DNA of 64,000 nt from an uncultured Porphyromonadaceae bacterium (GTDB lineage: Bacteria > Bacteroidota > Bacteroidia > Bacteroidales > Paludibacteraceae), in contig CASEAJ010000047.1 of the NCBI GenBank assembly GCA_949285425.1, positions 1 through 64,000 on the forward strand, written 5' to 3'. Numbering within the stretch: the stretch's first letter is position 1; each line of letters opens with the position of its first letter. The notes beneath the pieces were generated by a model. That model was given only the letters and a program-made list of their open reading frames with translations. It did not search any database and was not told where the DNA came from. Below, piece after piece: positions 1-57,746 of the stretch. Both the position numbers and the translations under genes were made by a program.

Positions 1-83
1 AACCCAATATAAACATAAGTCAAATCTGAGTCAACCTCTTTTATGCATTAAGATATTTTAAGTCAACCTTATTCGTTAAATGA

Positions 84-257
84 CACGATGTTTTCTTTTT
101 ATGCCGTCAAAGTTATCGTCCCACGTATGTGAGACACGTGTCTCACATATATGGGACACGTGTCCCACGGCCGTGATACACGTGTCCCACGGCTGTGGGA
201 CGATAACATGATGCCGTCAAACCGATAACATCGAAGGCATAAAAAGGGAACATCGTG
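84..257. repeat. Four-palindrome 22-bp array, element 1 (class A)
   Basis: Four 14-bp near-palindromes start at 120, 142, 164 and 186, exactly 22 bp apart: CCCACGTATGTGAG, CTCACATATATGGG, CCCACGGCCGTGAT and CCCACGGCTGTGGG. The three 8-bp spacers are all ACACGTGT, itself a palindrome. The array is enclosed by outer inverted arms: the left arm from 84 (CACGATG...) pairs with the right arm ending at 257 (...CATCGTG), interrupted on the right by an insertion near 207-225 that repeats ATGCCGTCAAA. Positions 84-131 are identical over 48 bases to 44479-44526. It is intergenic, upstream of the 515 gene. The rest of 1-514 shows no gene; the two short minus-strand ORFs there lack coding character. Confidence 0.85.
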
Positions 258-8755: not shown

Positions 8756-8876
8756 TCAGCATAAAGTTCTTTTTTCACATAGGTGAAACATATTTTTCAC
8801 ATAGGTGAAACATGTTTTTCACATAGGTGAAACATGCTTTTCACATAGGTGAAAAGATAACTTTGAAAGCATAAAC
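8756..8876. repeat. Four-palindrome 22-bp array, element 2 (class B)
   Basis: Four identical copies of TTCACATAGGTGAA start at 8774, 8796, 8818 and 8840, exactly 22 bp apart. The 8-bp spacers vary slightly: ACATATTT, ACATGTTT, ACATGCTT. The left flank contains ATAAAGTTC and the right flank GATAACTTTGAAAGC, which are partly complementary outer arms. The last core plus right flank (8840-8876) matches 44581-44617 with two mismatches, and the left flank plus first core (8756-8788) matches the reverse complement of 57714-57746 exactly. It lies between the divergent PCMD and TolC operons; the rest of 8529-9146 holds only their promoters. Confidence 0.9.
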
Positions 8877-20517: not shown

Positions 20518-20638
20518 CAAGGCAAGAAAAAGAAAAAAGGCCTGTTTTTATTGGCTGAATAGTTACGGAGGTTTTCGTACGGTCATTGCAAATGGAGGTG
20601 GTTGGGCTTTTTTCTGTCAGTACGCATTGCCCACATAA

Positions 20639-20759
20639 ACGATGCGCATCACTTGGGTCAAATGATGCGCATCATTGGGGGTAAGTGATGCGCATCATTC
20701 GGGCAAACGATGCGCATCATTTTGCCCGTCGATGCGCATCACCTGCCCCGGACGATGCG
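20639..20759. repeat. GATGCGCATC palindrome array (class D)
   Basis: The perfect 10-bp palindrome GATGCGCATC occurs at 20641, 20664, 20687, 20709 and 20731, with a half copy (GATGCG) at 20754. The spacings are 23, 23, 22, 22 and 23 bp. Spacers differ and are G/C-richer than in the class A-C arrays. It lies between the start of the peptide transporter and the end of the PEP-synthase-like gene. Confidence 0.85.
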
Positions 20760-25573: not shown

Positions 25574-25633
25574 GCAATGCAGAAGGAGTATTTTGTTTTT
25601 TCTTGGCTTACATTCCTTGTTTTCTTGGTGTAT

Positions 25634-25731
25634 ATTCTACGACCCACTATTATGGGTTGTATAACTCACCGTTATGGGTCGTATAACTCACTATAGTGGG
25701 TTGTATAACCCATAATAGTGGGTCGTAGAAT
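25634..25731. repeat. Four-palindrome 22-bp array, element 4 (class C)
   Basis: Cores start at 25643, 25665, 25687 and 25709, exactly 22 bp apart: CCCACTATTATGGG, CTCACCGTTATGGG, CTCACTATAGTGGG, CCCATAATAGTGGG. Spacers are TTGTATAA, TCGTATAA, TTGTATAA. The outer arms 25634-25658 and 25707-25731 are perfect 25-bp reverse complements, so the whole 98 bp can fold as one hairpin. It lies between the gdhA terminator and the promoter of the 26-kb locus. No gene is seen in 25574-26084. Confidence 0.9.
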
Positions 25732-25955
25732 TTTTGCTGTTGAAACAACAAATTTCTGTGCTCAAAATGGAAAACAAATACTTGTTGAAAAATGAAAGTC
25801 TGTGCTCTTTCGGAGAGAAGAATACTTTTTCTTCCATTTGCGGTTTTTGCTTTGTTTTGTTTGGTTTTGTTGCATAAATATGATTGTTTTATAATTTCAC
25901 TTGCCGGTATGTGAAAAAAAATATAATTTGTCCCTGTTTAAATTGTAAAAAATGT

Positions 25956-44367: not shown

Positions 44368-44478
44368 ATGCTTTGGACAGTCCATTCATTTTTATATGTC
44401 GACAAACAGGAAATTCAACTATGCAGGCTTTGTCATTTTATTACGTGAGTTCGGCATAACGGTTTTATGCGCCAACAG

Positions 44479-44618
44479 CACGATGTTTTCTTTTTATGCC
44501 GTCAAAGTTATCGTCCCACGTATGTGGGACACGTGTATCACATATATGGGACACGTGTCCCATATACGTGGGACGTTCTTTTCACATAGGTGAAAAGATA
44601 ACTTTAAAGGCATAAACA
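44479..44618. repeat. Four-palindrome 22-bp array, element 5 (chimeric A/B)
   Basis: Cores start at 44515, 44537, 44559 and 44581, exactly 22 bp apart. The first three are class A (CCCACGTATGTGGG, ATCACATATATGGG, CCCATATACGTGGG, spacer ACACGTGT); the fourth is the class B core TTCACATAGGTGAA after the spacer ACGTTCTT. The left flank and half core (44479-44526) equal 84-131; the fourth core and right flank (44581-44617) equal 8840-8876 except for two bases. The outer arms, TTATGCCGTCAAAGTTATC and GATAACTTTAAAGGCATAA, are inverted repeats. It lies between convergent genes; the 84-residue ORF across it is only the repeat read in frame. The remainder of 44299-44934 shows no gene. Confidence 0.9.
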
Positions 44619-44853
44619 TACGACATCATGCCGATGGACCGATGACATTTTCCTTTTCCCTGAACTTGTTTCCGGCCAAGTGTTTGACTTCAGGTAGCTT
44701 TTCTCTGCCCGCATTCATAAGAATGTATCACCATACATCCTACATTTATTGTTATACAGCTAATATCCAATGAAATATTGTATCTTATGCCGAACTCGCG
44801 TATGGCTTGGAGACATTGGAATGTATGTGGATGTATGCTTTGATAAGCAACAA

Positions 44854-57603: not shown

Positions 57604-57746
57604 TTTTATGCCGACAAAGTCGTGTGCCCTTGCCGATAAAGTTCTTTTTTCACCTATATGAAAAAAGCTTTTCACCTATGTGAAAAATATGTTTCACCTA
57701 TGTGAAAAATGCTTTTCACCTATGTGAAAAAAGAACTTTATGCTGA
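57604..57746. repeat. Four-palindrome 22-bp array, element 6 (class B, inverted)
   Basis: Cores start at 57649, 57671, 57693 and 57715, exactly 22 bp apart: TTCACCTATATGAA once and TTCACCTATGTGAA three times (the reverse complement of the class B core). Spacers are AAAAGCTT, AAATATGT and AAATGCTT. Outer arms ATAAAGTTCTTTTTTCAC and its exact reverse complement enclose the array. An ATGCCGACAAAGTCG stretch at 57609 recalls the left flank of elements 1 and 5. It lies between secA and the GT4 gene. The ORFs crossing 57241-57675 are not called. Confidence 0.9.

Follow-up and report, generated by a model that had tools for sequence, protein, structure and literature searches.

Four-palindrome 22-bp arrays of Bacteroidales as predicted binding platforms of HU-wHTH proteins, dispersed by MITE-like elements

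A modular array inside a MITE-like element

What holds four short palindromes of two sequence classes in strict register between genes of an uncultured Bacteroidales bacterium, and to what larger unit do they belong? The question arises at 44.5 kb of the window—the whole stretch of DNA analysed here, 64,000 nucleotides of a draft genome that is 89% complete—where a preliminary description recognised three class A modules and one class B module, and read them as a chimera joining the left end of one array class to the right end of another. Much of that account holds: the order A-A-A-B and the exact 22-bp register (44513-44596) are as given, positions 44479-44526 equal 84-131 in 48 of 48 bases, a match that goes no further in either direction, and 44581-44617 differ from 8840-8876 by two mismatches in 37. 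Bases 84-85 belong to an IS end, and the array-bearing element resumes at 86. The limits of the feature, drawn at 44479-44618, were too narrow; the real unit is a 359-bp element with outer inverted repeats ACGTGAGTTCGGSATAA (Table 1), which sits in a 636-bp intergenic stretch between two convergent ORFs.

About 45 places in the same genome match 44442-44802 wholly or largely, at 71-90% identity (BLAST of the locus), and with its terminal inverted repeats and dispersed noncoding copies—no ORF of at least 100 aa lies inside 44443-44801—the element has the hallmarks of a MITE. TSDs of 6-8 bp and of the form A...T flank the copies at C47:77680 and on contigs C67, C108 and C122, as well as related short elements on C33 and C38; sequences seen on several copies are AAATAAT, AGTTAAT, AAGGTTT, ATTGGCTT and AGGAATAT. 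The 44.5-kb copy has no matching TSD, nor did we find an empty site for it: in sister species G001 the gene upstream is a different one and the neighbouring gene order differs, and genome G003 gave no match. Between the outer repeats, the paired inner repeats stand 104 bp apart in most copies and 38, 60, 82 or 126 bp apart in others, all of which equal 16+22n, bearing out the suggestion that these elements vary by modules of 22 bp.

A search of the genome with the terminal inverted repeats recovered short elements and broken copies, the draft assembly losing multi-copy IS at contig ends, and no autonomous partner of the element was found in this draft. A second MITE of 203 bp (contigs C33, C38 and C103) has the outer repeat ACGTSAGTTCGGGATAA in common with it and contains no 22-bp array; its copies on C33 and C38 carry TSDs of 6-7 bp. 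Separately, another array of about 22 bp (GGGAGACYCTCTCCCAAAGCC) adjoins the orthologue of the 44935-46347 gene in G001.

Table 1. Features of the 44.5-kb element and related features of the window
Feature	Position	Strand	Basis or relation
Full MITE-like element with array, 359 bp	44443..44801	+	Genome-wide copies, outer terminal inverted repeats (ACGTGAGTTCGG)
Left outer terminal inverted repeat ACGTGAGTTCGGCATAA	44443..44459	+	Terminal inverted repeat search of own genome
Left inner inverted repeat TTTATGCCGTCAAAGTTATC	44493..44512	+	64 matches in own genome (at most 2 mismatches), paired at 16+22n
Module A1	44513..44530	.	GTCCCACGTATGTGGGAC; class also found before HU-wHTH gene C45:28785 of this genome
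Module A2	44535..44552	.	Class A
Module A3	44557..44574	.	Pairs with A1, 21/21 complementary at best covarying pair
Module B	44579..44596	.	TTTTCACATAGGTGAAAA; class also found before HU-wHTH gene C97:63553 of this genome
Right inner inverted repeat GATAACTTTAAAGGCATAAA	44597..44616	+	Same repeat search and pairing
Right outer terminal inverted repeat ACGCGAGTTCGGCATAA	44785..44801	-	Terminal inverted repeat search of own genome
IS end, TGTCATTTAACGAATAAGGTTGACT with repeated GTTGACT motifs	1..85	-	Inserted 36 bp (14+22) from last array core
All-A array, AAAA plus extra 22-bp GATAAC module, left cut by IS	86..243	+	Related to the 44.5-kb array
Pure class-B four-module array	8771..8876	+	Matches the operator of own gene HU-B best
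22-bp array, core GATGCGCATC	20637..20759	+	
Class-C four-module array, ACCCAC N4 GTGGGT, TATA-type linkers	25633..25735	+	
Pure class-B four-module array, opposite orientation	57647..57733	-	Sequence pattern

Four-module arrays across Bacteroidales

The ladder pattern (CACN4GTG N12)x3 has 178 matches in the genome against none for the reversed pattern, and the 22-bp register is therefore not a product of chance. The N4 centres of the palindromes are often palindromic themselves. We rejected a CRISPR array, since the modules number four and are separated by 4-bp linkers instead of unique spacers, as well as a structured RNA, no Rfam covariance model having scored above its gathering threshold in the window.

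Ladders of the CAC class occur in sister species G001 and G002, are absent from G003 and were found in just two further genomes among 300 of the family; 22-bp ladders (CACTTTCGTGAGCGAAGCGAAC) were noticed in G279 and G291, which belong to a different genus of that family. When public genomes were scanned for exact matches, with a search pattern biased to the CAC class, at least 80 ladder loci came up, 71 of those listed being in Bacteroidales, and among these listed matches exactly four modules were present at 59 of the 71 loci. The 15 genomes reached from these loci hold between 7 and 114 ladder matches each (control, 0). Array sequence is specific to each lineage, and what the lineages share is confined to the core and the 22-bp period. 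Genes around the listed arrays were arranged in tandem in 28 cases, divergently in 21 and convergently in 15; with no preference for convergent or divergent intergenes, a role as terminator or promoter was rejected.

Four arrays were read in Bacteroides xylanisolvens, and repeated GGCTGACAATAA / TTATTGTCAG motifs, perhaps the end of another transposon, flank or follow three of them within about 150-250 bp. Comparison of a B. xylanisolvens locus with its near relative G359 revealed a 15.6-kb stretch of genes inserted nearby, with the array outside it.

HU-wHTH genes lie downstream of arrays

When the gene neighbours of the 71 listed arrays were compared all against all, a clustering made without prior hypothesis, one family emerged (8 loci in 8 genomes), and at all eight it lay beside the array and downstream of it. 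Its members are HU-HIG proteins (PF18291, profile E-values of 1e-20 to 1e-33) with a C-terminal winged helix. An AlphaFold2 model (pLDDT 84) places an HU fold at about residues 33-118 and a wHTH at 137-196, and Foldseek matched it to 4fmr, 6n2l and 5eka, the nearest being 4fmr (from Bacteroides vulgatus) and HU/IHF; by both profile and fold, the array-adjacent genes thus encode members of the HU/IHF superfamily. PF18291 matches were present in 41 of 41 genomes searched, the array-less G003 having three weak ones only, and HU-HIG/wHTH proteins occur in many copies per genome in the Bacteroidales examined. Our literature search returned no DNA site or function for the HU-HIG/wHTH family and nothing on 22-bp arrays of this kind. 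Burroughs et al. reportedly proposed in 2017 that HU-HIG proteins act against mobile elements, with no site named.

We fetched 100 HU-HIG genes, of which 84 were first classed as long; recalculating protein length from the start codon gave 70 long genes (HU plus wHTH) and 30 short ones. CAC ladders stood upstream of 29 of the 84 genes first classed as long and downstream of none of the 84, as would suit an auto-operator, and reversed sequence gave 0. Counting any 22-bp palindrome ladder, many of the further ones having cores like GACN4GTC or AACN4GTT, the upstream regions of 47/70 long genes carried one, compared with 5/30 short genes (Fisher p = 3e-6). Among periods from 12 to 40, 22 was the unique best upstream of 37 of 66 genes, the next best periods reaching two genes each, and it was not among the best periods listed for the downstream control.

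Within the genome under study, HU-A (C45:28785) and HU-B (C97:63553) each follow a pure four-module array, of class A 54 bp before the start and of class B 50 bp before the start, respectively. The class C array has counterparts 209-212 bp upstream of an HU-wHTH gene in G001 and G002, and another array with the GATGCGCATC core precedes one of the genome's own short HU-HIG genes (C63:12502) by about 236 bp. Counting against a simple pairing, 23 of the 70 long genes fail the ladder criterion, most dispersed arrays do not lie near an HU gene, and three short genes of the studied genome carry ladders and lack a wHTH, so that something besides the wHTH may read the arrays. Short HU-HIG genes on C16 and C45 have strong upstream 22-bp ladders of the GGTATATCGGAAAAATATTT type.

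Dispersed arrays match operators of their own genome

Of 28 operators compared, that of HU-A was the best match for the A array at 122 and for the AAA block of the 44.5-kb element, and that of HU-B for the B array at 8776. More widely, 17 of 25 dispersed arrays in 14 genomes matched an operator of their own genome best (permutation mean 1.7, maximum 10 in 5000), and the misses went mostly to the corresponding operator of a close relative.

The highest of about 1600 protein/DNA column pairs joined HU-A residue 171, in the recognition helix, to the C of CAC (z 7.3), and an Arg in that helix accompanied 26/28 CAC cases and 3/19 others (p = 8e-8), in tests that cover 47 gene/array pairs with statistics that ignore phylogeny. 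Because phylogeny is uncorrected and many HU-domain columns score as well, and given exceptions to the helix/core link, we regard the Arg/CAC covariation across these sequences as supportive, not as proof of contact. That four-module arrays beside HU-wHTH genes come back throughout Bacteroidales, an order of gut bacteria, suggests an undescribed DNA recognition code.

Binding platform or structural core

We consider it probable, from comparison of sequences, that the arrays are binding platforms—auto-operators, where they precede the gene—of HU-wHTH proteins, and that MITEs copied them around the genome. The four-palindrome 22-bp array would serve as a cooperative platform for one HU-wHTH protein (PF18291 plus C-terminal winged helix), with the wHTH reading the palindrome half-site and HU dimers, one for each two helical turns (22 bp), bending the DNA into one nucleoprotein unit. 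Where an array stands before its own HU-wHTH gene it would most likely be an autoregulatory operator, and MITEs with terminal inverted repeats ACGTGAGTTCGG would carry copies elsewhere. At these dispersed copies the protein may silence, assist transposition or organise the DNA. Binding, bending, autoregulation and occupancy in vivo are what we infer; what we observe is that the element has MITE-like copies, some of them with TSDs, that arrays adjoin the genes and match operators, that helix and core covary, and that an IS inserts in phase.

The chief competitor is that the array is merely the structural core of a MITE, a foldback or minisatellite whose palindromes and 22-bp period come from hairpins or slippage with no dedicated protein. 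The elements are indeed bounded by terminal inverted repeats, several with 6-8 bp TSDs, and the A block behaves as one structure: among A-A-A-B copies covariation is strongest between A1 and A3 (positions sum to 101), describing a long hairpin, and the folding energy of the block is -74 kcal/mol. A separate local hairpin in each A module is ruled out by the arms of A2, which anti-covary in the same copies. However, the copy number of a minisatellite should vary freely, in contrast to the four modules of 59/71 listed Bacteroidales loci; palindromic N4 centres fit recognition of a duplex, not hairpin loops; and these arrays lie upstream of HU-wHTH genes, match the operator of their own genome and covary with the recognition helix. 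We therefore consider a structural core unlikely, if the most serious of the alternatives.

REP/BIME, ERIC, Correia and BOX are short intergenic palindromic repeats, some of them modular (BOX) and some IS targets. The arrays described here differ in their strict ladder of four sites at 22 bp and in their association with a cognate HU-wHTH gene. A closer precedent for a structural core is BrickBuilt of Porphyromonas gingivalis, an intergenic MITE with 1-23 repeats of 23 nt, the terminal inverted repeat GAGACCTTTGCA and about 20 copies per genome (PMC4596501). Both are intergenic and TIR-bounded, with tandem repeats inside whose unit spans about two helical turns, but the 22-bp repeat and the different TIR led us to reject an identity with BrickBuilt (PMC4596501 table 2), for which neither the four-palindrome constraint nor a link to an HU-type gene is reported. 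The outer TIR is instead near-identical to that of P. gingivalis MITE239 / ISPg3, ACGTGAGTTCGATATAAAGGAA there and ACGTGAGTTCGGGATAAAGG here, a comparison made by TIR alone (PMC4596501 table 2).

As binding platforms, the arrays would account for a class of dispersed intergenic repeats as putative protein-binding sites, and would give HU-HIG/wHTH proteins a proposed site class: four palindromes at 22 bp, with the half-site core [CG]AC in most classes. The proposal also points to one residue of the recognition helix as likely to set specificity and to a probable regulator for each array class, which makes the whole family testable.

An IS inserts in phase with the arrays

Many contigs of the genome end in an IS whose own ends read TGTCATTTAACGAATAAGG, and 21 of 22 exact IS ends have an array within 200 bp. 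The distance from the last core to the IS was 13-15 bp in 12 cases, 26 bp in one and 35-38 bp in eight, that is, 14 or 14+22, with insertions strongly phased on 22 bp (Rayleigh R 0.89, p about 6e-8). Because the junction sequences of the 36-bp cases differ from one another, it is distance, and not local sequence, that fixes the site. Such phase-locking is best explained as the trace of a protein or structure that occupies the array in vivo; the phase could also come from hairpin structure rather than a bound protein.

The same 21 of 22 ends, phase-locked at 14 or 36 bp, would fit arrays that the IS itself recognises as its targets; the IS would then be a site-specific transposon, and the spread of the arrays a by-product. 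We find this very improbable, as arrays stand upstream of HU genes in other genomes, the IS abuts several array classes and its end was absent from the plasmid and viral collections searched. A search of the assembled genome for an IS21 transposase gave none above the cut-off. Tn5053/Tn402 'res site hunter' transposons aim their insertion at a protein-occupied multi-site array. Insertion at a multi-site array is the point of likeness to that family (named in PMC7765201), although the array here is not a resolvase site and the IS is known from its ends alone.

Combining platforms and phased insertion, we offer a wider picture tentatively and with some doubt: Bacteroidales may possess sequence-specific histone-like proteins that form a diversifying family, each member having a class of four palindromes at 22 bp to itself. 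Spread by MITEs, such sites would nucleate HU-type nucleoprotein units by which mobile DNA is silenced, insulated or marked, and other transposons would land on them in phase.

Origin of the composite A-A-A-B core

The preliminary description had allowed that, should class A and class B flanks never occur in pure form elsewhere, the mixed array would be ancestral, and it proposed counting hybrids and mapping their breakpoints. AAAA and BBBB arrays both exist in the same genome, the former for example at the C45 HU operator and on C59, the latter at the C97 HU operator and at about a dozen further places among the matches listed, mostly as BBBB with other flanks. A-A-A-B is therefore a composite, and that part of the recombinant claim stands. 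The part that made the 44.5-kb copy the event itself does not: A-A-A-B is the commonest form of the element, with 21 distinct copies, all of which share one identical A/B junction with the linker GTTC before the B module, the A modules being joined by ACGT. Hence a fresh recombination between neighbouring arrays, for which the pure arrays, the missing TSD match and the different upstream gene in G001 might speak as expected outcomes, is contradicted as the origin of AAAB by that junction in 21 copies and an element at about 45 places, and is scarcely credible, an exchange of flanks at the 44.5-kb copy being possible.

Nor are the two classes interchangeable, as had been suggested. Every hybrid has a single B module, placed last and beside the right inner repeat, and neither ABAB nor BBBA order was met among the copies read. 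The element at 44443-44801 would offer three sites for HU-A (C45:28785) and one for HU-B (C97:63553), and its AAAB core arose once and was then multiplied, probably by transposition. The modules evolve as one hairpin and presumably as targets of two different proteins, rather than as neutral units free to be exchanged. At C108:5288-5631, a BBBB core lies within an outer MITE that elsewhere holds AAAB, with the TSD AAATAAT, an exchange of cores between element types.
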